From Solobacterium sp. (GTDB taxonomy: Bacteria > Bacillota_I > Bacilli_A > Erysipelotrichales > Erysipelotrichaceae), in assembly GCA_017510405.1 (NCBI GenBank), contig JAFWNG010000007.1:1-64000 (forward strand): DNA of 64,000 bases, read 5' to 3'. The notes under the pieces were generated by a model, which saw only the letters and a list, made by a program, of their open reading frames with translations, did no database searches and was not told the DNA's origin. Below, in pieces: positions 796 through 52,137 of the stretch; within the stretch, counting starts at the first letter, position 1, and each line of letters opens with the position of its first letter. Made by a program: the position numbers and the translations under genes.

Positions 796-1614
796 TCAGC
801 GATAGAGTTCGTATACAGACTGTTCAAACATTTTCTCTGCTTCATCCACTGCGTTTACAGCGGAGAAGAACTGGATCCGGCAGCCTCCCAGGGTAGTCTC
901 GCGGATCATGTTCTTCGCAGCCATGCGCTGCCTTACTTTTGAGAATGCCGAACTGTCCACATCCAGATCGAGATATTTGATCCAGCGGTCGCCGTCCGCC
1001 GTCTTAACGCGTGAACCGCGGATCTTGATCGGCCGGCAGTCTGTGCGGTACTCCGCCAGGTGCATACATGTGCATGTTTCAAAATCCGTTCCGATCAGAA
1101 GAACAAATCCCTTCAGTTCATAGAGACGTGCTGCCGGCGATTCCTCGGCCAGCGGGAAATGCGTGGACTGACGGTTGCACAGCAGGCGCGCATAGCGTCC
1201 GTACGCCGCATAGGATACCTGCGGATGATTTGAGATCTCCACGCCTTCACGGTGACGGAAATTCTCAACGACAGCTCCCATATTCGGAATATCGCTGTGC
1301 TTCGGATCAAACGCCGGGATTGCTTCCCGGACTTTGCGGTACATCGACGCGGCTACCGGCGGAGCGACCCATTCACTCGGTTCGCTGTTGTCTGCCACCT
1401 GGGACGGCATGACGATCGTGCCGCCTTCCCCTGCCGCTTCGATCAGGGCATCCACGACTGTCCGGGCGCCGCCGATCACGTAATGAAAAGCAGAAAGGCT
1501 GGAATGTACTTCCAGGATCATGCTGTTCGTCACGCCGAGGCGATGCAGCGCGTTTACGATGTCTTCTTTTGTGACCGGATCGATGACGGCCGTCTGTTTC
1601 TTATCTTCCTTCAT
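796..1614 (-). CDS. AAC(3) family N-acetyltransferase
   Basis: A 272-residue protein of the aminoglycoside 3-N-acetyltransferase (YokD/AAC(3)) fold, normal length for the family. Visible family features are LEVHSSLSAFHYVIGGA near residue 35, GGTIVMPSQ near 65, the HPQVSYAAYG stretch near 130 and a possible catalytic-site HLAEY near 185. Its start overlaps the end of psuG by 14 bases, so it is the last gene of the psuK-psuG operon. That context suggests acetyl transfer to some metabolite rather than antibiotic resistance, but chromosomal family members are mostly uncharacterised. Aminoglycoside activity should not be assumed. Confidence 0.8.
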   Translation of the reverse strand: MKEDKKQTAVIDPVTKEDIVNALHRLGVTNSMILEVHSSLSAFHYVIGGARTVVDALIEAAGEGGTIVMPSQVADNSEPSEWVAPPVAASMYRKVREAIPAFDPKHSDIPNMGAVVENFRHREGVEISNHPQVSYAAYGRYARLLCNRQSTHFPLAEESPAARLYELKGFVLLIGTDFETCTCMHLAEYRTDCRPIKIRGSRVKTADGDRWIKYLDLDVDSSAFSKVRQRMAAKNMIRETTLGGCRIQFFSAVNAVDEAEKMFEQSVYELYR

Positions 1615-2518
1615 GATATCTGCACAGTTCCGCGGCGATCTGAGCGCCGACTTTTGCGTTGTTGAATACGAGGCGGATATTTGCGTCCAGTGACTTTCCG
1701 CCGGTCAGTTCGACGATCTTTGCGAGCAGATACGGGGTGCAGTCCTTGCCTTTGATGCCCAGGCTGTCCATCTCCGCTATCGCCTTGTCGATCGCTCCGT
1801 TGATCACGTCTTCGTCCATGGCATACTCTTCCGGGATCGGATTGGTGATCAGTACGCCGCCGTCCAGTTTCAGTTCGCGCTTTGCCGCGATGACGGCTGC
1901 GGCTTCCGCCGCGTTCTGTACTGCGCTGTCTACTTTCAGTCCGGATCTGCGGCAGTAGAATGCCGGCAGTTCATCGGTCTGCCAGCCGAGTACCGGTACG
2001 CCCTTGGTCTCGAGCACTTCCAGTGTCAGGGGCAGATCCAGGATCGCTTTGGCACCGGCACAGATGACGGTAACGTTCGTACGGGCCAGTTCTTCCAGAT
2101 CGGCCGAAATATCAAACGTCTGCTGTGCGCCGCGGTGAACGCCGCCGATGCCGCCGGTGACGAATACTTCGATGCCGGCAAGAGCAGCGAGGATCATCGT
2201 CGTCGCTACTGTCGTGGCGCCCCACTCTTTCCGCGCCATGATGATCGGAAGGTCTCTGCGCGATACTTTGGCAATGCCTTTGCGTTTTCCGAATTCTTCG
2301 ATCTCTTCCGGGCTCATGCCGACCACGCCGACACCGTCAATAATGCCGATCGTACACGGAACAGCACCGTTCTCCCGGATGATGGCTTCCACCTCCAGCG
2401 CTGTTTTAACATTCTGCGGATAAGGCATGCCGTGCGAGATGATCGTTGACTCCAGAGCCACGACCGGACGGTTCTCCCTTAATGCCGCCAGTGCTTCTTC
2501 TTTTACTCGTATGTTCAT
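1601..2518 (-). CDS. psuG: Pseudouridine-5'-phosphate glycosidase PsuG
   Basis: A 305-residue enzyme that reversibly cleaves the C-C glycosidic bond of pseudouridine 5'-phosphate to uracil and ribose 5-phosphate in the cytosol. Family hallmarks are VALESTIISHGMPYP near residue 20, TVATTMILAALAGIEVF near 105, TGGIGGVHRGAQ near 122 and LITNPIPEE near 225. Length matches the family. It overlaps psuK by an ATGA junction, the usual kinase-glycosidase pair for pseudouridine salvage. No transporter for pseudouridine is visible beside it. Confidence 0.95.
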   Translation of the reverse strand: MNIRVKEEALAALRENRPVVALESTIISHGMPYPQNVKTALEVEAIIRENGAVPCTIGIIDGVGVVGMSPEEIEEFGKRKGIAKVSRRDLPIIMARKEWGATTVATTMILAALAGIEVFVTGGIGGVHRGAQQTFDISADLEELARTNVTVICAGAKAILDLPLTLEVLETKGVPVLGWQTDELPAFYCRRSGLKVDSAVQNAAEAAAVIAAKRELKLDGGVLITNPIPEEYAMDEDVINGAIDKAIAEMDSLGIKGKDCTPYLLAKIVELTGGKSLDANIRLVFNNAKVGAQIAAELCRYHEGR

Positions 2519-3532: not shown

Positions 3533-3907
3533 ATGGCAATGCAAATATATGAATCTGCTGAAGATTATCTGGAAGCTATATTAATGATACAGGAAAAAAA
3601 GGGTGTCGTACATTCTGTAGATATCGCCGAAGAACTCAGTTTCACCAAGGCGAGTGTCAGCGTAGCCATGAAAAAGCTGCGTGAAAACGGTTATATCCGG
3701 ATGGAAAAAGACGGCCGTCTGGTCCTGCTTGAACCCGGACTTGAGATTGCAAGACGCATCTATGAGCGCCACCAGGTGCTGACCCGCTTCTTCCTGCAGA
3801 TCGGCGTGGACGAAGAAACAGCCGCAAAAGACGCATGCAAGGTCGAGCACGACCTGAGCGAGGCTACCTTCGAACGCATTAAGGCGATCACTTCTGTTTC
3901 CAAATAG
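3533..3907 (+). CDS. DtxR/MntR-family metal-dependent repressor
   Basis: A 124-residue manganese or iron-sensing repressor. The winged helix covers about residues 5-70 (SAEDYLEAILMIQ, then the recognition helix FTKASVSVAMKKLRENGYI). The short dimerisation and metal-binding part holds the candidate ligands ERH near 82 and VEHDLSE near 107, matching the metal sites of Bacillus MntR. It lacks the SH3-like third domain of DtxR, so it is MntR-type. Its 3' end overlaps the convergent gene at 3888 by 20 bases. Its targets are not evident here. Confidence 0.85.
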   Translation: MAMQIYESAEDYLEAILMIQEKKGVVHSVDIAEELSFTKASVSVAMKKLRENGYIRMEKDGRLVLLEPGLEIARRIYERHQVLTRFFLQIGVDEETAAKDACKVEHDLSEATFERIKAITSVSK

Positions 3908-4496
3908 ACAGATCGAACAGATCTGTTTTTTTGTCGGAAGGAACCGGTACGAATCCGATCTCATCGCCGCATTTCCACTCTGACGAAGAGCCGGTGATAT
4001 CCGTCACCTTCCCGAAATAAAGCAGACCATCAGTCTGTTCCGGCATAATGATGAGCTCACACGTTTCGGATACCGGTACTGCCAGGCGGTCGGGATACTG
4101 TCTGAGCCGCCATGGGTCCAGCCGCCAGTCCTCGCGTACCGTCTTTCGTACTTCCGGGATCTGTGCCGGCTCCACGCCGCTTACAAACGGCTCATACTCC
4201 GCATCAAGCTCCTGCAGCTCTTTTCTTTTCAGCCGTACCGGTCTGACTTCATTCATCCGTACGGTACTTTCCCGCAGTTTCAGATCCGGACGGCTTCCCT
4301 GATGCAGGCGGCGGTACGGTTCAAATACCGCCGTATCCATGATCATAAAACAGAGACCGTCCTGCGGATGGATGTACGCGCCGGCAAGAAAGGCGTCGGC
4401 TTCTTCCGGTCCACCTGCTGTCCGCGCGATCGTGCGGTTCTGTATGACAACATAGTTGGAACAGAGATACCGGAAACTCAGTTCTTTTACGATCAT
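3888..4496 (-). CDS. Hypothetical protein (202 aa)
   Basis: I do not recognise this protein. It is soluble, mixed alpha/beta in appearance, with a basic middle (RPVRLKRKELQELDAEY) and no signal peptide, membrane segment or metal motif. The start at 4496 is chosen because ATGA couples it to the GNAT gene upstream and a GGGAG ribosome site precedes it; a longer start six codons upstream is less likely. It is the last gene of the LysR-GNAT operon and its 3' end overlaps the convergent MntR-like gene. Confidence 0.65.
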   Translation of the reverse strand: MIVKELSFRYLCSNYVVIQNRTIARTAGGPEEADAFLAGAYIHPQDGLCFMIMDTAVFEPYRRLHQGSRPDLKLRESTVRMNEVRPVRLKRKELQELDAEYEPFVSGVEPAQIPEVRKTVREDWRLDPWRLRQYPDRLAVPVSETCELIIMPEQTDGLLYFGKVTDITGSSSEWKCGDEIGFVPVPSDKKTDLFDLSIWKQK

Positions 4497-5029
4497 AACT
4501 CCCGGTCCTGCCATGTGATCATGCGCACATATTCGATTCCTTCAAACTGTCTGAGATAATAGGACGATCCGTTCGGTACGATGACGTCTGCCGTAAAGGA
4601 GCGGCGGGACTGAAACCCGGCAGACACAAGCACTGCCTGCATTGCCAGGTTTTCACGCACCGTGTACGCGCAGATGCCGCGGCACCACTGCTTCCGCGCC
4701 GCCAGTCCGATCATTGCGCTTACTGCCTGTTTCCCATACCCCTTTCCGCACATTTCCTTTTTCAGGATGACGTCCAGCTCTGCAAAGCGGTCTTCCTGTA
4801 CGGTCAGCTCGATCTTTCCGATCAGTTCGTCTTCTTTCATGACCGCAAAGCAGTGGAACGGATTCCCGTCCATCTGTCCGGTGCGGACTCCTTCAAGATA
4901 TGCATCGGTCTGCGGCTTCTGCAGCGGCACCGGCAGCTGCACAAGGCAGAAGGACTGGTCAACTGCTGCGTAGAGGTCCTGCAGTTCCTGCCGCATTTCC
5001 GGATGCCATGACACCAGCTGTATGCTCAT
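4493..5029 (-). CDS. GNAT family N-acetyltransferase
   Basis: A 178-residue GCN5-related acetyltransferase. The acetyl-CoA loop is KEMCGKGYGKQAVSAMIGLA near residues 90-110, preceded by the GKIELTV beta strand and followed by NLAMQAVLVSAGFQ, the usual motif B for RimJ/RimL-like enzymes. It is ATGA-coupled on both sides, to the LysR gene upstream and the 202-aa protein downstream. The acceptor cannot be deduced. Confidence 0.85.
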   Translation of the reverse strand: MSIQLVSWHPEMRQELQDLYAAVDQSFCLVQLPVPLQKPQTDAYLEGVRTGQMDGNPFHCFAVMKEDELIGKIELTVQEDRFAELDVILKKEMCGKGYGKQAVSAMIGLAARKQWCRGICAYTVRENLAMQAVLVSAGFQSRRSFTADVIVPNGSSYYLRQFEGIEYVRMITWQDREL

Positions 5030-5958
5030 TCCGCTTCCTCCCCGATATTCAGATACTGCTTGAGATGCAGGATGTACTGCTCGCCGACGGTACTCAGGAT
5101 GTTGTTGCGGCGGGTGATATAGCCGATCTCCATCGTATTGTCGGTGGTCATGCCGTCATCGAGAAACGGCACGGCAATGTAATCGTCGCCGTTCAGTTCC
5201 TCGCAGATGATGCCGGAGCACAGCGTATAGCCGTTGAGTCCGATCATGAGATTCAGCATCGTTGCCCGGTCATTGGCACGGATAGTGCGGGCATATTCCC
5301 GGGTGCTCAGGATCTCTTCCGCGAAATAGAAGGAACTGTTGTCGCCCTGATCGAACTGCAGACACGGGTAATCCTGCAGGTCCGCAAAGCAGATCGATTT
5401 CTGTCCGGCAAGCGGATGTCCCTTCCAGAGGTAAACGTATGCCTGGCAGTTGATCAGCGGATGGAACTCCAGTTCGTTCATCCGCAGCAGTTTTGTGACT
5501 GCCTGCCGGTTGAAATCGGAAAGATAGAGGATGCCGATCTCACTGCGGGCGGTGCTGACATCGGCGATGACTTCCCGCGTGCGTTCCTCCATGATGGAGA
5601 ATTCGTACTGACGCGTATCAAACTGCTTTGCCATTTCCACAAACGCTTTTACAGCAAAAGAATAATGCTGGGTCGAAATGCTGAACTTCTTTTTGACGGT
5701 TTCCGAACGCGCGTACCGCTGCTGCAGCTGTTCATACTGGCTGTAGAGCTGACGGGCATACATGAGGAATTCCCGTCCGTCATTCGTGAGCGTGACGCCT
5801 CTTCCGGTACGGTTGAAGATCGTAATACCGACGGATTTCTCCAGTTCCTTTACAGCACTAGTGAGGGAAGGCTGCGAGATGTAGAGCTGCTCCGCCGCCT
5901 TGTTCAGAGATCCCATTTCCGAGATCACGATCGCATAATAGATTTGCTGAATGGTCAT
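5026..5958 (-). CDS. LysR-family transcriptional regulator
   Basis: A 310-residue LysR-type regulator: an N-terminal winged helix (residues 1-60, GSLNKAAEQLYISQPSLTSAVKELE) and a two-lobed co-inducer domain (about 90-300). It is divergent from metF, and the 160 bases between the two genes hold a 16-base palindrome. By location it is a candidate regulator of the metF-metH genes, like MetR in enterobacteria, but the sequence does not prove this. It heads an operon with the GNAT and the 202-aa protein. Confidence 0.9.
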   Translation of the reverse strand: MTIQQIYYAIVISEMGSLNKAAEQLYISQPSLTSAVKELEKSVGITIFNRTGRGVTLTNDGREFLMYARQLYSQYEQLQQRYARSETVKKKFSISTQHYSFAVKAFVEMAKQFDTRQYEFSIMEERTREVIADVSTARSEIGILYLSDFNRQAVTKLLRMNELEFHPLINCQAYVYLWKGHPLAGQKSICFADLQDYPCLQFDQGDNSSFYFAEEILSTREYARTIRANDRATMLNLMIGLNGYTLCSGIICEELNGDDYIAVPFLDDGMTTDNTMEIGYITRRNNILSTVGEQYILHLKQYLNIGEEAE

Positions 5959-5997
5959 ATGTTCTGTCCTCCGTCTCAGCTATTATATCAGGATAAA

Positions 5998-6037
5998 AGA
6001 AACATTTGTTTCTAGCACCTTCAGTTATAGTTATAAT
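5998..6037 (+). promoter_or_regulatory. metF promoter with a palindromic LysR-type operator candidate
   Basis: AGAAACA-TT-TGTTTCT (5998-6013) is a perfect dyad of 7-base arms. A -10 TATAAT lies at 6032-6037, so the palindrome covers the expected -35 area of the metF promoter and the upstream region of the divergent LysR gene. Binding by the neighbouring LysR protein is inference. Confidence 0.5.
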
Positions 6038-6118
6038 TTATAGTCAAGGATCGTGAAAATGTATATATCGATTCCTGTCAGTGATTGTAAACTTAATATA
6101 ATACGGAGAGTTTTGTCT

Positions 6119-6985
6119 ATGGAAAAGATTAGAGATATCCTGAATACCGGATCCGTAACGGTTTCCTTTGAAGTATTCCCGCCGAAGAAAGCGGACGCCT
6201 ATGAAAGCGTGCGCGACGCCGTGCTGCAGATCGCCGATCTGAAGCCTTCGTTTATGAGCGTTACCTATGGTGCCGGCGGCACGACAGCCGGCATGACTGT
6301 GGAACTGGCGGATGAGATCAGTACGCGGCGCGGTGTGCCGGTGCTTCCCCATCTGACCTGTGTTGCCAGCAGCCGGGCGCACGTGGATGAAATGCTTGCG
6401 CGTTATAAAGAACTCGGCATACAGAACGTCATGGCACTGCGCGGAGACCTGCCGCAGGACGGCAGGAAGTCCGAGGATTTTGCCCATGCGTCGGATCTGA
6501 TCCGCTACATACGGGAACGGTCCGATCTCTGCATCGGCGCCGCGTGCTATCCCGAGGGACATGTGGAAAGCCGCAACAAATCCCGTGATATTGATTTTCT
6601 GAAGATGAAGGTGGATGCGGGATGTGATTTCCTGACCACCCAGATGTTCTTCGACAATACGATCTTCTACAACTTCCTGTACCGAATTCTGCAGGCAGGA
6701 ATTCATGTGCCGGTCATCCCCGGCATCATGCCGATCACCAACGCCCGCCAGCTGTCGCGTTCCGTGGCGCTGAGCGGAACGAATGTACCGGAGAGTTTCC
6801 GGGCGATCGTCGACCGTTTCCAGGATCATCCCGATGCCATGAAGCAGGCCGGCATCCTCTACGCTTCGCACCAGATCGTTGACCTGATCGCCAACGATAT
6901 AAAACATATTCATGTCTATTCCATGAACAAGCCAGAAGTCGCAGCAGGTATTCTGAAGAACCTGTCGGAGATCCTGTGTCTGTAA
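6119..6985 (+). CDS. metF: Methylenetetrahydrofolate reductase MetF
   Basis: A 288-residue flavin enzyme that reduces 5,10-methylene-THF to 5-methyl-THF, the methyl donor for MetH. The TIM barrel shows FEVFPPKK at residue 18, SVTYGAGG near 47, the folate-binding area NVMALRGD near 105, the conserved FLTTQMFFDN near 175 and PGIMPI near 198. An upstream in-frame ATG at 6053 is rejected because CGGAGAG sits correctly before 6119 and homology starts there. The next gene begins ten bases before its stop, so the methionine genes are coupled. Confidence 0.95.
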   Translation: MEKIRDILNTGSVTVSFEVFPPKKADAYESVRDAVLQIADLKPSFMSVTYGAGGTTAGMTVELADEISTRRGVPVLPHLTCVASSRAHVDEMLARYKELGIQNVMALRGDLPQDGRKSEDFAHASDLIRYIRERSDLCIGAACYPEGHVESRNKSRDIDFLKMKVDAGCDFLTTQMFFDNTIFYNFLYRILQAGIHVPVIPGIMPITNARQLSRSVALSGTNVPESFRAIVDRFQDHPDAMKQAGILYASHQIVDLIANDIKHIHVYSMNKPEVAAGILKNLSEILCL

Positions 6986-44197: not shown

Positions 44198-46324
44198 TTA
44201 ATGCTCGATTCCGTTTGCGTCAAGCCACGCGGACACATCGTCCGGAAGAGCTGCGCCGCCGGAATAATGGATCGATAAGCCTTCCCCCATCACTGCGTCC
44301 GGGGCAAGCTTTGCAATTGCGGTAAGACTCTGTCCGAACCTTCCGCCGCCGTGCGAACAGAACGGAAGGATCGTTTTCCCGGAAAAGTCATATTCCTCCA
44401 GGAACGACGCGACCGGCATCGGAATGGATGCCCACCAGTTCGGATATCCCAGCAGGACGATCTCATAGTCTTCCATGTTTTCCACATGATCGGACAGTTC
44501 CGGTCTTGCCTGTCTGTGCTGGTCTTCCTGCGCTTCCATCAATACCGTGCTGTAGTCGGTCGAATACGGCACAGCCGGAACGATCTCAAAGATGTCTGCG
44601 CCGGTCTGACGGCGGATCTCCTCTGCGGCGCCGCGGGTATTTCCTCCCCATGAGAAATACGCGATCAGGATCTTCCCGCTTTTCTCACTCTCCGGAACGG
44701 TTTCGTATGCTTTTACGATCCCGTTACGGGGAGCTGCGTTTCGAACCAGACGGATGCCGAGATTATAGCTTCGCATATCTTCCTGCCCGGCGGCGCGGTA
44801 GGCACTGCGCATGTTCTTGGCAAAGTCATTCCATCCGCCCCCGCGGTATATATGCCGGGTGCCGGAGGCAGGTCCGGTCGGGTCTGTGACTGCGGCGGTG
44901 TCATAGGCGCCGTAATGATCCCAGCACCATTCATTGACATTCCCGTGCATGTCGTAAAGTCCCCATACATTGGGTTCAAAGCTTCCCGTCTTTACAGTCG
45001 TCTGGCGGTATTCGCCGGGCTTTGCCTCGAGCACGGAATTATCGAAATAATTCTCTTCGATCTCATACGGATAATGACCGTAGAAGTTGGCTTCTGTGGC
45101 ATCCATGGACTTTTCCGTATTGAACGGTGTAAGTGTACCGGCACGGCAGGCATATTCCCACTCCGCTTCTGTCGGCAGCCGGTACCCGTCCGCGCTGAGG
45201 TCCCAGCTTACGCCTTCTTCTGTTACCGTATATACCGGCGTCAGGCCTTCGTCAGTGCTCTTCGCATTGGCAAACCGTACAGCTTCCAGCCACGAGATAT
45301 TCTCTGCCGGCAGGTCGTCCCCGCTGAAAGCAAAAGGTGTCTCGCCGGTCAGCCGTGTATATTCCATCTGTGTTGTTTCGTACGGATCCATGTAAAACGC
45401 CGATACAGTCACGTCATGCGGTGTTTCATCTTCGATCCGCCAGTTTTCGGTTTCCGGACTTCCCATCCGGAACGTGCCTCCCGAAATCAGTATGAATCCG
45501 TCGTCGACCGATTTCTGTTCTGTATCTGCCGGCGCAGCTGTTTCCTGCGGCTTTGGACTGCCGGTATCTGCCGGTGCCGTAGAACTGCTTCTGTTGATGA
45601 TCATGTCTGCCGCAAGACCGGTGAGGACCGCCGCAGTCACCAGAAGAACTGGATGCACGGTCCGCTGATCATCTTTCTGTCTGTTCCGGAACAGTACTGC
45701 TGTCTCGGTACCGATGAAAGCCCAGAACAGCAGGATCAGGATGTTTTCCAGAAATACCAGCAGCCAGGACTTTTCATAGTCCAGGAACGCAAACGGCACC
45801 CGGAACAGCATATAATCCGGAATGCTGTTTTTCAGGAAAAAGAAGAAACCGGCTGCGGCGATGCCGCAGAAGACAAGAGACAGGACATTCCTTCTGCCCG
45901 CTTTCTTCGTAAATGCCGCGGTCATTGCCGGGATATGCAGTCCCAGGTGCACGCCCATCAGTACAAACGACCAGTGCGACATGGAAAGATGCATACTTCT
46001 GGCAAAAGACACGGATGCCATACCGTACAGGAACGGTACGGCATATCCGCTCATCGACATTCCGCAGAACGCTGTAACGGCAAAGGACAGCAGCAGTGCG
46101 ATCGTGATTCCTGTCGATACCATCCGGTACGCATTGTATTTTCCTTTGAGCAGAGCACCGTACCATCGTCTGTTCAGGATCTGATGGATCACGACAAGAA
46201 CGGTCATCCCGATGCCGATCCACTCGTGCGCCATTTCTCCGGTCACCTGATATGCCATCAGGCACAGCAGAGCGATCGTCATACAGATATCTGTCAGATG
46301 CCTTGCCATTTTACGATCATGCAT
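44198..46324 (-). CDS. DUF4405 membrane domain - SUMF1/FGE-like domain - flavodoxin fusion
   Basis: A 708-residue three-part protein. Residues 1-260: DUF4405-type membrane domain of several helices with His pairs (HEWIGIGMTVLVVIHQIL; MHLSMSHW; GVHLGLHIP), as in haem-b membrane proteins. Residues about 285-545: a SUMF1/formylglycine-generating-enzyme fold (ISGGTFRMGS, RLPTEAEWEYACRAG, NVWGLYDMHGNVNEWCWDH, YRGGGWNDF). Its end lacks the paired catalytic cysteines of true FGE. Residues 560-708: flavodoxin (KILIAYFSWGGNTRGAAEEI, GYPNWWASIPMPV). Start at 46324 follows AGGAGAACGGC. The topology and role are inferred: it could move electrons across the membrane. Confidence 0.82.
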   Translation of the reverse strand: MHDRKMARHLTDICMTIALLCLMAYQVTGEMAHEWIGIGMTVLVVIHQILNRRWYGALLKGKYNAYRMVSTGITIALLLSFAVTAFCGMSMSGYAVPFLYGMASVSFARSMHLSMSHWSFVLMGVHLGLHIPAMTAAFTKKAGRRNVLSLVFCGIAAAGFFFFLKNSIPDYMLFRVPFAFLDYEKSWLLVFLENILILLFWAFIGTETAVLFRNRQKDDQRTVHPVLLVTAAVLTGLAADMIINRSSSTAPADTGSPKPQETAAPADTEQKSVDDGFILISGGTFRMGSPETENWRIEDETPHDVTVSAFYMDPYETTQMEYTRLTGETPFAFSGDDLPAENISWLEAVRFANAKSTDEGLTPVYTVTEEGVSWDLSADGYRLPTEAEWEYACRAGTLTPFNTEKSMDATEANFYGHYPYEIEENYFDNSVLEAKPGEYRQTTVKTGSFEPNVWGLYDMHGNVNEWCWDHYGAYDTAAVTDPTGPASGTRHIYRGGGWNDFAKNMRSAYRAAGQEDMRSYNLGIRLVRNAAPRNGIVKAYETVPESEKSGKILIAYFSWGGNTRGAAEEIRRQTGADIFEIVPAVPYSTDYSTVLMEAQEDQHRQARPELSDHVENMEDYEIVLLGYPNWWASIPMPVASFLEEYDFSGKTILPFCSHGGGRFGQSLTAIAKLAPDAVMGEGLSIHYSGGAALPDDVSAWLDANGIEH

Positions 46325-46344
46325 TTGCCGTTCTCCTGTTCTCT

Positions 46345-46974
46345 TTACTGTATGCTTTCGATCCATGCGCGGATGTCATCTTCCGCTGTGCCGGCGCTGA
46401 ACCGTTTTCCTTCCAGCCAGCTGCCGCTGCCTGCGCGCTCTTCAAGATTCTTTCCGCTTCTTCCAAGTCCGCTGCTGGAAGATGTGCAGAACGGAATCAT
46501 CGTGATCCCGCTGAAATCATATGCCTCGGCAAACGTATCCATGATGCGCGGCTCTTCGCCCCACCAGATGGGATAGCCGATATAGATCCTGGTATATCCT
46601 TCCAGGGATACGGCTTCACTGCCGATCTCCGGCCGTACAGAGGCATCGTTCTGTTCCAGTGTCGTGCGGCTGCTGCTGTCATGCCAGTTCAGGTCCGCTT
46701 CGGAATATTCCTGCGCAGCTTTGATCTCATACAGATCTGCCGCTTCGATCTTAGCGATCTTCTCCGCAATGTCTTTCGTCGTTCCGGTCGCGGAGAAATA
46801 GACCACCAGGACCTTCTCCTGCGGTTCTTCTTCTGCCGGTTTCTCTTCCGGTTCTTTTTCTTCCTCTTTCGCGGAGGAACGCTCCTCAGCTGATCGTGCT
46901 TCGGAGCCTGCTGTACATGCCGTAAGACCGGTCACCAGCAGAAACATCATGAATATCTGTAATACTCGTTTCAT
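46345..46974 (-). CDS. Flavodoxin lipoprotein
   Basis: A 209-residue lipoprotein: signal peptide at 1-17 with lipobox LTACT, a charged linker of Glu/Lys/Pro (about 25-50), then a flavodoxin domain. VVYFSATGTTKDIAEKIAK binds the FMN phosphate; IYIGYPIWWGEEPRIMDTF and MIPFCTSSSSGLG are the second and third loops. Surface-exposed flavodoxin is unusual because most flavodoxins are cytosolic. It is 18 bases from the cytosolic flavodoxin gene and 20 from the triple-fusion gene. Confidence 0.85.
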   Translation of the reverse strand: MKRVLQIFMMFLLVTGLTACTAGSEARSAEERSSAKEEEKEPEEKPAEEEPQEKVLVVYFSATGTTKDIAEKIAKIEAADLYEIKAAQEYSEADLNWHDSSSRTTLEQNDASVRPEIGSEAVSLEGYTRIYIGYPIWWGEEPRIMDTFAEAYDFSGITMIPFCTSSSSGLGRSGKNLEERAGSGSWLEGKRFSAGTAEDDIRAWIESIQ

Positions 46975-46992
46975 ATTTTCCTCTTTTCTCTG

Positions 46993-47472
46993 TTACAGGA
47001 CTGTTTCCAGCCATTTCCGGATCTCCGCCTCATTCGGACGGTTGATCTGTACGCCTTTTACCCAGCGCACGTCACCGCTGACGTTCTTATGCAGCGCAGT
47101 ATCGCTTCTGCCGACGCCGCTGCCGCCGGACGTACAGAACGGTACGATCGTTTTCCCGGAGAAGTCATAGCTTTCCAGGAATGTTTCAATAATACGCGGT
47201 GCGATGCCCCACCAGATCGGGAAGCCGATGATCACCGTATCATACGCGTCCATATCTGCGACCCGGTTTCTGACTGCGGGTCTTGCGGATGCGTCGTTCA
47301 TCTCCACGCTGCTGCGGCTGTTTCTGTCCATCCAGTCCAGATCCGCTGCTGTATACCGTTCTTCCGGTTCGATTTCAAAGAAATCACCGCCGCTGATCCG
47401 GGCGATCTCCTGACCGATCCGTCTTGTTACTCCGCTTGCGGAGAATACTGTCACCAATACTTTTTCTGCCAT
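46993..47472 (-). CDS. Flavodoxin-family protein
   Basis: A 159-residue cytosolic flavodoxin. LVTVFSASGVTRRIGQEIAR near residue 5 is the phosphate loop, IIGFPIWWGIAPRIIETFL near 82 and VPFCTSGGSGVG near 111 complete the FMN site, the same architecture as the lipoprotein version next door, suggesting duplication. Start at 47472 follows GAAGGAG; the longer frame upstream overlaps tetR and is rejected. First structural gene after tetR. Confidence 0.88.
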   Translation of the reverse strand: MAEKVLVTVFSASGVTRRIGQEIARISGGDFFEIEPEERYTAADLDWMDRNSRSSVEMNDASARPAVRNRVADMDAYDTVIIGFPIWWGIAPRIIETFLESYDFSGKTIVPFCTSGGSGVGRSDTALHKNVSGDVRWVKGVQINRPNEAEIRKWLETVL

Positions 47473-47521
47473 AATCGTCTGTTCTCCTTCCTGTTCTGTT
47501 TTCAATTCCTTCCGCTGTCCG

Positions 47522-48145
47522 TCACGCTCCGAGAAGCCGGACGATACAGCGGAATGTGAGTTCATAAATGGTCTGATATGCAAACGCAATGCCTGCATCT
47601 TCCATCGCTGTTTTCTGTTTTTCCGTTACCGCAGTATACGGATAGATGCCGAACATGAACGGAAAGAACTCATAGATGAACTCTTTCCTTTCTTCGCTGC
47701 TTACCTGCGGACAGAATTTCTCAAGAATGCGATCGATGTTTGCAATCGATTTTCCATAGGCAGTCTTGAAGTCTGTGAGAAGTTCCTGTCTGCTGTTGGC
47801 TTCCATATCATACGTATTCATCGCCAGGAGTTTCAGAAGCTGTTCCCTCTTCTCCAGAGAATGTGCAATTTCCTCCGCTATCTGCCTCTTTGTCAATTTT
47901 CTGTTTTCTTCAATGATTTTTGCGAGATCCTCGTTCCAGCGTTTGTACTCCAGTTCAAACAAGGCAAGAAATATCTCTTCCTTTGTCTGAAAATAGTTGT
48001 AGATCGTCGGCCGTGAGAAAGACGTCACGTTTCCGATCTCTTTCAGCGTGATCTCCCGGAAACTCATTGTCTGATATAGTTTCTCGCAGGCATGTATAAT
48101 TTCCTCTTTGCGGGCTGCTGTCCGTTCAAGCGATCCTTTTGGCAT
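47522..48145 (-). CDS. TetR-family repressor
   Basis: A 207-residue regulator: N-terminal HTH at about 10-55 (REITLKEIGNVTSFSRPTIY then NYFQTKEEIF) and a helical ligand-binding domain. Start at 48145 is set by AAAGGAACAGAT; the frame can extend 14 codons upstream without a ribosome site. Two matching palindromes lie in its own promoter, so it probably represses itself and the flavodoxin series downstream. Ligand unknown. Confidence 0.9.
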   Translation of the reverse strand: MPKGSLERTAARKEEIIHACEKLYQTMSFREITLKEIGNVTSFSRPTIYNYFQTKEEIFLALFELEYKRWNEDLAKIIEENRKLTKRQIAEEIAHSLEKREQLLKLLAMNTYDMEANSRQELLTDFKTAYGKSIANIDRILEKFCPQVSSEERKEFIYEFFPFMFGIYPYTAVTEKQKTAMEDAGIAFAYQTIYELTFRCIVRLLGA

Positions 48146-48343: not shown

Positions 48344-48958
48344 TCAGATGCTCTTTCCGCTCACTGTAGTCTGCGCAAAGAGATTCTTTCCCCTGTCATA
48401 TGCTTTCTGAAGATTCCTGTTCCAGTTTCTCTCACGAAGTTCATTTTCTCTTGAAGTATTCCCGAAAACAACAAACTCCATTTCTTTTGCGCGTCCGTAC
48501 AGTCTGTCGCCCAGCATCACTCTTTTCATGCTGTCCAGAAGTCCGAACTGTTCGAGATGCTCTAAAGAATTCCCTGCCGAACAGAGTATGATCGCTTTAT
48601 CCAGCATCTTCATGGTCTTTTCGCCGTATGCAAATCCATACGTCCAGACCCGGTCAAACCATCCCGCCAGTTTCGCCGGCGCTTCCGTCCAGAACACCGG
48701 ATAGATGAACGCGATTGCATCGGCCGAATTGATCTTTTCCTGTTCCGCACGTACATCCTCAGCAGGTTCCAGTGTATTTCTGTAGTAAGCATCCCTGAGA
48801 TATTCCTGTTCCGTCATAGACGGATCAAAATTCATTTTGTAGAGATCTGAGATCATGTATTCATTGCCGGAATCCGTGATGCCCCGGATAAACGCATCAC
48901 ACATCTTCTTTGTGAAAGAATCCTCTGACGGATGACAATACACAATAAACACTTTCAT
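48344..48958 (-). CDS. NAD(P)H dehydrogenase (quinone)-type flavoprotein (NQO/YwrO-like)
   Basis: A 204-residue flavodoxin-fold oxidoreductase. VYCHPSEDSFTKKMCDAFIR near residue 6 is the family start, ADAIAFIYPVFWTEAPAKLA near 80 and FDRVWTYGFAYG near 102 are the FAD/FMN and quinone-site segments. Family members reduce quinones or nitro compounds by two electrons. Last gene of the four-gene operon with the lipoprotein prephenate dehydratase; three bases from the preceding gene. Confidence 0.87.
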   Translation of the reverse strand: MKVFIVYCHPSEDSFTKKMCDAFIRGITDSGNEYMISDLYKMNFDPSMTEQEYLRDAYYRNTLEPAEDVRAEQEKINSADAIAFIYPVFWTEAPAKLAGWFDRVWTYGFAYGEKTMKMLDKAIILCSAGNSLEHLEQFGLLDSMKRVMLGDRLYGRAKEMEFVVFGNTSRENELRERNWNRNLQKAYDRGKNLFAQTTVSGKSI

Positions 48959-48961
48959 GCA

Positions 48962-49360
48962 TTAATCCTCTGGTATGTTCTTTTTTTCACGTTTCCTGCG
49001 TCTCTGTTGCCGGTTGTTCTTTTCGGATTCAAACAGTTCAACGGCAGCGTCTGTCAGTTCATCCGGCCATTGCCTGCCGCTCTTCATCACTTTCGCCCAG
49101 GGGCAGAGTGTTTCATACTCATCATCAAATACAACGGTATACGGCGGTCCGCAGCGGTCATCCACAGCCATATATAAATGCCTGCCGTTATACATAATAC
49201 TGCCGGCGTCTCCTTCGCTCATCTGTTCGTCCAGCTGATCGTAGATCTCTTTTGTCAGTTCAAACAGGTGATATGACTGTATACCGCCGTATTCACCGAA
49301 ATACCGGCCGGTCTCCTCATTCCGGCAGGCTTTCCAGCCGTCCCCTTTTTTAAACTGCAT
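48962..49360 (-). CDS. Hypothetical protein (132 aa)
   Basis: I do not recognise this family. A soluble protein with an acidic-aromatic body (RYFGEYGGIQSYHLFELTKE; CGPPYTVVFDDEYETLCPWA) and a strongly basic tail (NNRQQRRRKREKK). Start follows AGGAGGCAATACGC. It lies 19 bases after the prephenate dehydratase gene and is surely co-transcribed with it. Confidence 0.65.
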   Translation of the reverse strand: MQFKKGDGWKACRNEETGRYFGEYGGIQSYHLFELTKEIYDQLDEQMSEGDAGSIMYNGRHLYMAVDDRCGPPYTVVFDDEYETLCPWAKVMKSGRQWPDELTDAAVELFESEKNNRQQRRRKREKKNIPED

Positions 49361-49379: not shown

Positions 49380-50333
49380 TCAATACTGTTTTTCCACCGT
49401 GAAAAAACTGCCCAGATAACGGACTTCAGAAATCTTTCGGATCGTATCGATCTGTTTTTCTGTGATTCCGCCGGGATTCTCTGCTTCGATCACGTAATGA
49501 TACGATCCTAAGTAACTTCCTTCCGGCCGGTCGTGGATCGCTACAAGTTCCAGTCCGGTACCGGATATCGCAGCAATGATGTCATCGATCCTGTTCGCTT
49601 CGCAGCTTGCCACAAAGACGGCTCTCGGCAGCAGTTTTCCTTCCGGCTGAGATGAGGAAAGTACGTAGAACCGGGTCTTATTCGCGTCTGTGATCTGTAC
49701 ATTCTCTGCCAGCACCTCCAGTCCATACAGTCTGGCAGCGCCGGGTGCGGCAATCGCTGCAATCGTTCTGTCACCGGTTTCTGCGACGTAGCTCGCCGCA
49801 GCCGCAGTGCTCGGCATTTCTTTTGTCACCGCGTCCGGCATGTGTTCTTTTCTCCATACAGCACTCTGGGCGATTCCCTGGGCATGGGAACAGACCGTCC
49901 GGATATCTTCGATCGAGGCACCGGGAATTCCCATCAGTGTCTGGCTGATGGGAATGATCACTTCACCGATCACATAAATATTCTCCTGAGCGATCAGAGC
50001 ATCCAGATAATTCGTGACCGCTCCGCCCAGTGTATTTTCCTGCGGGATCACCGCATAGTCTGTATTACCGTTTACAACATCCGCGATTGCTTGATCGACA
50101 GTCGCTTCGGGAAAGAATACTGCTTCATTCTGAAAGAAGAACTGCGCTGCCTCTTCCGTATAAGTTCCCTGCGGTCCCAGATAACTGACTGCGGCACCGG
50201 ACGGGATCTCCGGTATGACTACGGAAGTTTCCGGATCCGGTTTTATATCAGAGGCAGCTGTACCGCAGCCGGAAACCATGATGCATACTGTCAGAAAGAC
50301 AGAAATCATAAGTGCTGTTTTTATCGTTTTCAT
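49380..50333 (-). CDS. Lipoprotein prephenate dehydratase with ACT-like domain
   Basis: A 317-residue protein with a clear lipoprotein signal (residues 1-23, lipobox VSGC) in front of a complete PheA-type dehydratase: VSYLGPQGTYTEEAAQFFF near residue 48, YAVIPQENTLGGAVTNYLDA near 90 and the catalytic TRF motif DANKTRFYVLSS near 218. The C-terminal ACT-like part has HDRPEGSYLG near 275, in place of the ESRP phenylalanine-sensing motif. Prephenate dehydratase makes phenylpyruvate in the cytosol; an exported form is unexpected. ATGA-coupled to a membrane-anchored hydrolase. Confidence 0.82.
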   Translation of the reverse strand: MKTIKTALMISVFLTVCIMVSGCGTAASDIKPDPETSVVIPEIPSGAAVSYLGPQGTYTEEAAQFFFQNEAVFFPEATVDQAIADVVNGNTDYAVIPQENTLGGAVTNYLDALIAQENIYVIGEVIIPISQTLMGIPGASIEDIRTVCSHAQGIAQSAVWRKEHMPDAVTKEMPSTAAAASYVAETGDRTIAAIAAPGAARLYGLEVLAENVQITDANKTRFYVLSSSQPEGKLLPRAVFVASCEANRIDDIIAAISGTGLELVAIHDRPEGSYLGSYHYVIEAENPGGITEKQIDTIRKISEVRYLGSFFTVEKQY

Positions 50334-51403
50334 CTGTTTTCCTCCGGCGTCCGGGCTGTTCCTGCGCCTGCAAATTTCCTGACCCGGTTCATATATTCTT
50401 CCGGCACTTCCAGATGCACGACATGTCTTGCATGGATCCTGACGAAGGTGACATCCTGAAGCCGGCTGCACGCAAACTGCGCGTTTTCTTCTGACATGGC
50501 GCCGTTCAGTGTGCCGTCCGGAAGGACGGACGTATCCGCCTGGATCAGCAGGACCGGACACCGGATGCGGCGCAGCGCTTCCGCATGATCAAAACCTGCA
50601 TTCCATGTACCGTCATAAAATGCTTTTCCAAAGCGCGGATCGTACTGGTCCATACCGCGGATCATTTCCCTGACGAGCGGCGGCACAAACGGGATCTCAA
50701 GCGTATTCTGCCAGTGCAGCATTCTTGCCAGGCTGATCAGGATACCGATCATTACACGCGCACCGGGAAATGTATTGTTTCGGAAAAACTCCGAAGAGTT
50801 ACTCATCCAGAACCGGACATAATCGCCTTCGTTATCCTCACGCACAGCTTTTTCGCTGACTGCAAACGTGCGGTATGCGATCGTATTCCTTACCGCAGGA
50901 TATTCCGAGGAAAACAGCGGCGGATCTTCCAGTACGGCAGCTTTGATCCATTCCGGTCTGTTTGCGGCCAGCCACACTGCCAGAAGACCGCCCGAGGAAT
51001 TTCCGCTGACATATACCGGTTCGCCGATCACTTCTTCGATGAACTGTGCCAGAGAAGAACCGATCTGTTCTGCGTTCATCTCATAATCATCCGGGCATCT
51101 GGTCTTTCCGTGTCCGGGATAATCAACAGAATAGACATGATAGTATTCCGACAGCGGCACCATGACCCGGTGATAGGAAAACCAGTCCAGCATCTGTGCA
51201 TGCAGAAGGAGAAGCACGGGTTTTCCGTCCCCTTCGGATTCGGCATAATGAAAACGAACATCACCGACAATAACGTCTTTTTCCGTGATGCCTGCTTTCT
51301 TCAGTCTCAGATGCCACGGGTTCCGGTACAGCGCAATATACAGGATCACCAGCGGCATCAGCCTGAGAATGATCAGAAACAGATTTAACAGAAGACGGAT
51401 CAC
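50330..51403 (-). CDS. Membrane-anchored alpha/beta hydrolase
   Basis: A 357-residue protein: one N-terminal helix (residues 3-25), then an alpha/beta hydrolase. LLLLHAQMLDWFSYHRV near residue 70, VSGNSSGGLLAVWLA near 133 (nucleophile Ser), and ARHVVHLEVP near 328 (His). Paralogue of the hydrolase at 35076: both share a single helix, a basic stretch and the LEDPP segment. First gene of the operon with the lipoprotein prephenate dehydratase. Substrate unknown. Confidence 0.83.
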   Translation of the reverse strand: MIRLLLNLFLIILRLMPLVILYIALYRNPWHLRLKKAGITEKDVIVGDVRFHYAESEGDGKPVLLLLHAQMLDWFSYHRVMVPLSEYYHVYSVDYPGHGKTRCPDDYEMNAEQIGSSLAQFIEEVIGEPVYVSGNSSGGLLAVWLAANRPEWIKAAVLEDPPLFSSEYPAVRNTIAYRTFAVSEKAVREDNEGDYVRFWMSNSSEFFRNNTFPGARVMIGILISLARMLHWQNTLEIPFVPPLVREMIRGMDQYDPRFGKAFYDGTWNAGFDHAEALRRIRCPVLLIQADTSVLPDGTLNGAMSEENAQFACSRLQDVTFVRIHARHVVHLEVPEEYMNRVRKFAGAGTARTPEENR

Positions 51404-51510: not shown

Positions 51511-52137
51511 TCAATACCCCAGCCTGCGGTCAACCGTATGTACCGGCGGCTTTCCTTCCAGCACAAGCAGCAGATTCTGTATAACGACATCAATGACCAG
51601 GCTGTAATTGACACCGCTGCGATAGCCGCCCGAAATATGCGGTGTGATATATACGCGTTCAGCCGACCAGAGCGGATGGCCTTCAGGCAGCGGCTCTGGA
51701 TCCATCACATCCAGACAGGCAGCTTTAAGATGACCGTTTGCCATTACCGAAAGAAGATCCTCTGTCACAATGGAATTGCCTCTGCCGACATTAAGCAGAA
51801 TAGCAGTGGATTTCATCTTTTCCAGTCTCTTCCTGTCAAACATTCCTTTTGTCTCCGGTGTACCGGGGAGACTCAGAGCAACCACATCCATCTCCGGGAG
51901 GATCGCGTCCATTTCATTCGGTATCACAAGCTGTTCAACATAGTCCGGCTGATCATGCACAGTTCTTCTCACGCCATAGCATACAGCACCTAGGGCATTC
52001 GCTTTTCTGAGAAACGAACTTCCGATCATTCCCATACCGACAGACAGTGTCCTGGCACCTTCAAATCTTGTGATCTGATCCAGCAGTTCCCATCTCTGTT
52101 CTTTCTGTATGGAAAGATACTCAGGCATCCGTTTCAT
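51511..52137 (-). pseudogene. 2-hydroxyacid dehydrogenase, N-terminal third missing
   Basis: 208 residues covering the NAD-binding domain and C-terminus of a D-isomer-specific 2-hydroxyacid dehydrogenase: dinucleotide motif VGMGMIGSSFL near residue 33, NVGRGNSIVTEDLL near 117 and TPHISGG near 168. The full family is about 310 residues; the segment before PEYLSIQKEQRW is absent, so the substrate domain is incomplete. The reading frame starts at an ATG that overlaps the preceding gene remnant. Probably a deletion derivative. Confidence 0.75.

Follow-up and report, generated by a model that had tools for sequence, protein, structure and literature searches.

The window analysed here is a stretch of 64,000 nucleotides from a Solobacterium sp. 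contig, and at positions 49380 to 50333 on its minus strand lies a gene for a putative exported form of prephenate dehydratase (PDT), which is normally a cytosolic enzyme of phenylalanine synthesis. The assignment rests on the frame and start, a PF00800 match (1.5e-53), and membership in a clade of exported PDTs. The frame is complete, with 317 codons (a product of 317 residues), an ATG at 50333, and a GGAGG ribosome-binding site just upstream (50331 to 50345 with the start codon, minus strand, GGAGGAAAACAGATG), bearing in mind that GGAGG matches also arise by chance in the window. The N-terminus of the product is MKTIKTALMISVFLTVCIMVSGC. A first-pass annotation had given the gene these coordinates and this reading, both correctly, and had named a start 3' of the signal as one finding that would overturn it. 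There is no in-frame ATG, GTG, or TTG between codons 19 and 95, and codon 95 is already inside the catalytic domain. Translation begun beyond the signal would thus leave only a damaged enzyme in the cytosol, and a mis-called start is unlikely.

The export signal occupies residues 1 to 22 and is followed by the putatively lipidated Cys23 (50265 to 50333, minus strand). It is a typical lipoprotein signal, MKTIKTALMISVFLTVCIMVSG and then the cysteine, with MVSG preceding C in the lipobox, and both inspection of the sequence and a rule-based scan find the charged n-region, hydrophobic h-region, and lipobox cysteine of bacterial lipoproteins. The protein is accordingly classed as a predicted lipid-anchored, extracytoplasmic one. 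Residues 24 to 48 (50190 to 50264, minus strand) form an unconserved linker of low pLDDT whose length varies among relatives. The PDT catalytic domain comes next (residues 49 to 228; 49650 to 50189, minus strand) and covers positions 1 to 179 of the 181 in PF00800, with a score of 181.7 bits (1.5e-53; cut-off, 25.2). An ACT-fold domain at residues about 236 to 315 (49389 to 49628, minus strand) is matched by no Pfam model and was placed from an AlphaFold2 model (mean pLDDT, 80.8) and its alignment with PDT crystal structures. Residues 47 to 314 of the predicted structure align with the Phe-bound PDT 3mwb with a Z score of 26.2 at 2.7 Å. These results, with the TRF motif at residues 220 to 222, uphold the initial description of a full PheA-type catalytic domain followed by an ACT-like domain. 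Against the NCBIfam equivalog model for prephenate dehydratase, NF008865, the protein scores 196.7 bits, below the curated cut-off of 219.

All of the residues expected of a working dehydratase are in place. The catalytic motif E99 N100 T101 (50031 to 50039; E159 N160 T161 in Escherichia coli) and the motif S149-H150...Q156 (49866 to 49889; S208-H209...Q215) are invariant in 48 exported PDTs, and the TRF motif (49668 to 49676; T278-F280) is invariant both in these and in 76 other PDTs, all positions being on the minus strand. More fully, the equivalents of E. coli E159, N160, S208, H209, Q215, N276, T278, R279, and F280 do not vary among the 48 exported proteins. Near the catalytic motifs, three positions are fixed otherwise than in other PDTs: Q98 (usually I, L, V, or F), G103 (usually T or A), and S175 (usually N or D).

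The two motifs that govern feedback by phenylalanine, GAL(V) and ESRP, are a different matter; they define Phe-regulated PDTs and not the enzyme activity itself. By sequence comparison, both are consistently replaced in the exported PDTs, GALV of E. coli by N/S/D-R-I-D (NRIDD at residues 247 to 251 of the window protein; 49581 to 49595, minus strand) and ESRP by HDRP (residues 267 to 270; 49524 to 49535, minus strand). The Ser position of ESRP is Ser in 76 of 76 other PDTs and Asp or Glu in 48 of 48 exported ones, and the position five residues N-terminal of the motif is Asn in 74 of the 76 other PDTs and Glu in all 45 rows of the main exported clade. Changes in ESRP desensitise the E. coli PDT, and a secreted fungal PDT with NSRP, EqPdt, escapes inhibition by aromatic amino acids (PMC11980547), from which loss of Phe feedback is predicted for the exported PDTs. 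They are probably feedback-free, judging from these residues, and the new ACT residues may form another ligand site.

With the window PDT as the query, a scan of one genome for each of 84,980 species, which picks up close relatives only, found 44 relatives at 57 to 72% identity in Lachnospiraceae, Erysipelotrichaceae, and other Clostridia. A ruminant host appears in 18 of the record titles, and 16 more carry RUG or RUI names, which we take to be those of the rumen genome series; the scanned collection is rich in rumen-type genomes and the scan reaches close relatives only, so these counts are not a measure of enrichment. The main clade comprises 45 proteins, including rows from whole-genome searches, and together with the three lipoproteins that form its sister group (L005, L006, and L169; 41 to 46% identity) makes up an exported clade of 48 sequences. 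Isolate records with the gene include Lachnospiraceae bacterium JC7 and Oribacterium sp. C9 (L044 and L052). A maximum-likelihood tree, built by a quick search with SH-aLRT support only, sets the 48 apart from the 76 other PDTs with support of 100, and the main clade has support of 98.

An N-terminal export signal was recognised in all 48 clade members, compared to none of the 76 other PDTs, by one simple rule rather than a trained predictor, a rule that missed the Cys in a few of the members scored as lacking a lipobox. By this count 35 of the 48 have a lipobox, and the remainder have signal-peptidase-I-like signals or an anchor. Export thus appears to be an old, maintained property of the clade, which rules out a signal gained by one gene only and strengthens the earlier proposal, made from the lipobox, that the protein sits outside the membrane. 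The exported PDT is patchily distributed: it was found in 1 of 392 genomes sampled from the phylum of the window and in 5 of 299 from the family to which isolate JC7 belongs, with a clear gap between the scores of exported (>300 bits) and ordinary (<173 bits) PDTs. Exported PDTs are 69 to 72% identical between Erysipelotrichaceae and Lachnospiraceae, whereas the cytosolic PDTs of such genomes are only 35 to 40% identical, which argues for horizontal transfer between bacterial classes. Carriage as phage or plasmid cargo was considered and set aside: no viral contig was confirmed, and there was no plasmid match at 60% identity or above. Three close Solobacterium copies show low dN in a dN/dS comparison, with too few changes in total to carry much weight.

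At the window locus, four genes on the minus strand are tightly packed. An N-terminally anchored alpha/beta hydrolase (50330 to 51403; PF12697) overlaps the PDT start by 4 bases, and the PDT is followed, after gaps of 19 and 3 bases, by a 132-residue protein of unknown family (48962 to 49360), which has no Pfam or NCBIfam match, and a flavodoxin-fold NAD(P)H oxidoreductase-like protein (48344 to 48958; PF02525, 6.2e-32). The membrane-anchored hydrolase and the quinone reductase-like protein of the first-pass annotation are therefore present, but the operon is a weak clue to function. Neither of the two downstream genes was found in other loci, a relative of the hydrolase occurs in the vicinity (about 4 kb) of a single PDT gene among those of the relatives, no neighbour is widely shared across the relatives' loci, and the Pfam families of 114 neighbours have no theme, so a function read from the local operon was set aside. 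Several other genes of the window, all on the minus strand, were also noted. Three Flavodoxin_4 domains lie in consecutive genes (44198 to 47598). One of these genes (46345 to 46974) encodes a Flavodoxin_4 protein with its own lipoprotein signal, MKRVLQIFMMFLLVTGLTAC, a flavodoxin predicted to lie outside the membrane, and another (44198 to 46366) encodes a 722-residue membrane protein in which DUF4405, an FGE-sulfatase domain, and a Flavodoxin_4 domain are combined. At 51511 to 52137 there is the NAD-binding part alone of a D-2-hydroxyacid dehydrogenase (208 residues; profile positions 106 to 278 of 305); inspection of the upstream frames by eye revealed no N-terminal half, and the gene is probably truncated.

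Across the relatives, the recurrent partner of the exported PDT is an exported HAD phosphatase (PF12710), found at 4 of 44 loci. It is fused behind the PDT in L065 and ahead of it in L069, and it adjoins the PDT in L073. In L062, a HAD phosphatase and a histidine phosphatase (PF00328) are combined in one lipoprotein, whose gene lies directly upstream of the exported PDT (3627 to 6011, plus strand). Genomes carry about 1.3 such HADs each, and the four cases compare to about 0.1 expected in 44 loci (Poisson, 7e-6, for a post hoc count). The linked phosphatase is absent from the window genome, so the link is not required everywhere. A different fusion is seen in L071, where a 585-residue frame holding positions 6001 to 6810 places the exported PDT behind an exported domain of ~300 residues with only weak phytase-like and SMP-30 matches.

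Another PDT stands beside the exported one in 36 of the 44 relatives' genomes, usually, where tested, in the same frame as a chorismate mutase domain, i.e., as a cytosolic chorismate mutase-PDT, and all 36 have dehydroquinate synthase. The genome of L125 (G170) holds a third PDT-like protein, a degenerate PDT domain (TEF for TRF, QN for EN) fused with prephenate dehydrogenase, in the frame holding 1383 to 1922 (minus strand) of G170:C25:1-7000. The exported PDT is the sole PDT detected in eight genomes: G000, which is the window genome, G146, G148, G149, G156, G162, G183, and G186. G188, with fragmentary PDTs, is counted apart. Dehydroquinate synthase was not detected in five of the eight (G000, G156, G162, G183, and G186; Fisher p = 5e-5 against the 36 two-PDT genomes), nor DAHP synthase in G000, G156, and G162, joint absences that may come from gaps in draft genomes; of the eight, only G000 comes with a completeness figure (96.6%). 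This genome has chorismate synthase, a small chorismate mutase, and, judged from their sequences, EPSP-synthase-like and shikimate-kinase-like genes; its only match to prephenate dehydrogenase, at 21.8 bits, is below the cut-off. In G096 and G119 (82 to 85% complete), which carry the sister-group lipoprotein, chorismate synthase, chorismate mutase, dehydroquinate synthase, and DAHP synthase all went undetected. The exported PDT thus tends to persist where both the cytosolic PDT and the pathway have apparently disappeared, and carriers that have apparently lost the pathway cannot use it for ordinary de novo synthesis. G146, G148, and G149 do not fit so simple a pattern, for they retain the upper pathway and prephenate dehydrogenase while no other PDT was detected in them.

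Since it is kept in carriers that appear to be without its normal pathway, the exported PDT probably processes molecules met outside the cell. We lean, by a little over even, toward an extracytoplasmic and probably feedback-free PDT whose substrate, prephenate or a close analogue, reaches it from elsewhere than the cell's own pathway. The computed basis for this reading is the predicted export, the PDT fold, the invariant catalytic positions, the changed Phe motifs, the transfer between lineages, and the persistence of the gene without a detected upper pathway. Such an enzyme would work outside the membrane without inhibition by Phe and would convert prephenate or its analogue, set free by other cells or escaping from the cell itself, to phenylpyruvate, CO2, and water. 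The phenylpyruvate might next be imported for transamination to Phe, or it might be reduced. The link to a HAD phosphatase would fit salvage, in which membrane-impermeant metabolites are processed outside before uptake. No documented source of extracellular prephenate was found in the literature searched.

The substrate could instead, as the first-pass annotation had allowed, be a different acid, with the same chemistry acting through a changed pocket on a plant- or microbe-derived cyclohexadienyl acid of the herbivore gut, such as arogenate or another prephenate relative. The fixed residues Q98, G103, and S175, the mostly ruminant origin of the carriers, and the persistence of the exported PDT where no pathway was detected would all suit such a substrate, but every position known to matter for the dehydration of prephenate is kept, and we give this alternative about one chance in four. 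A loop outside the cell in the service of its own Phe synthesis, in which prephenate from the cytosol escapes by leakage or export, the lipoprotein dehydrates it, and phenylpyruvate comes back, is less probable still. The idea resembles the overflow proposed for PheC of Pseudomonas (PMC10520331), and three genomes give it substance. In G146, G148, and G149, chorismate synthase, dehydroquinate synthase, and a good match to prephenate dehydrogenase are present but no other PDT was detected; chorismate mutase was detected in G148, and in these three the exported PDT might serve Phe synthesis. Against a general role of this kind, 36 genomes hold another PDT as well, and G000, G156, G162, G096, and G119 lack both upper-pathway markers as far as could be detected.

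It is very improbable that the protein only binds or senses, with the PDT domain holding one ligand and the altered ACT domain another and no turnover, a reading close to the suggestion of a binding protein in the first-pass annotation. The residues of the ACT site are new yet fixed, and the PDT fold resembles that of solute-binding proteins, but the catalytic positions are invariant across all 48 proteins, which leaves the suggestion unsupported, and no transporter or sensor gene is a consistent neighbour. We give least credence of all to an extracellular acylase that quenches quorum sensing by cleaving acyl-homoserine lactones in the manner of GqqA of Komagataeibacter europaeus, which is reported to be both an acylase and a PDT (PMC8192741) and is among the best structural matches (7am0; Z, 26.0), since at 23% identity the match reflects the common PDT-ACT fold and does not single out acylase activity.

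Taking the exported PDT to be an enzyme for prephenate or a close analogue, we would tentatively go further and suggest, though with rather more doubt than belief, that a horizontally spread family of surface-tethered PDTs lets cells of the herbivore gut, including shikimate auxotrophs, harvest prephenate or a related acid, partly with an exported phosphatase. If the proposed role is true, prephenate or a relative would be a shared or scavenged gut metabolite; if harvest is also true, it would constitute an extracellular salvage step for aromatic biosynthesis, one that we have not found described. The phrases exported, secreted, and periplasmic prephenate dehydratase returned no paper in the open-access literature, the scope of the search, and in what was searched we found no description of an exported bacterial PDT of the PDT-ACT fold, which we regard as an exported variant of a known enzyme family. 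Why shikimate-branch enzymes such as secreted chorismate mutases and PheC should occur outside the cytoplasm has been called controversial (PMC10520331). The exported PDT represents an independently evolved exported enzyme for one step of this branch, in gut commensals of which some are apparently without the pathway, and since pathway-less carriers cannot use it for de novo synthesis, the reason for export becomes directly testable.

Compared to the cytosolic PDT, or PheA P-protein (PF00800 plus ACT), the exported PDT has the same fold, catalytic motifs, and domain order, but it has an export signal, replaced Phe-feedback motifs, and fixed differences in the putative pocket, and it occurs beside the cytosolic enzyme. 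EqPdt of powdery mildew is, by its description, similar in being a PDT-ACT protein that acts outside its own cell, has an altered ESRP motif, and is free of Phe feedback (a prediction in the case of the exported PDT), but it is fungal, is secreted unconventionally without a signal peptide, and acts inside plant cells (PMC11980547). Exported PheC and the CM-CDT fusions (PMC10520331) likewise lie outside the cytoplasm, beside a cytosolic PDT and free of Phe feedback, and the same reaction is expected of them and of the exported PDT. A PheC relative is nevertheless the wrong fold for the window protein, which gives a full PDT-ACT match over residues 47 to 314, while PheC has no ACT domain and is believed to have evolved from solute-binding proteins (PMC10520331), a difference of fold that the first-pass annotation had rightly drawn. 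The exported PDT also differs from PheC in belonging to Gram-positive gut bacteria and in having no exported chorismate mutase fused to it. PheC and the CM-CDT fusions (PMC10520331), together with EqPdt (PMC11980547), are precedents for enzymes of this branch that function outside the cytoplasm.
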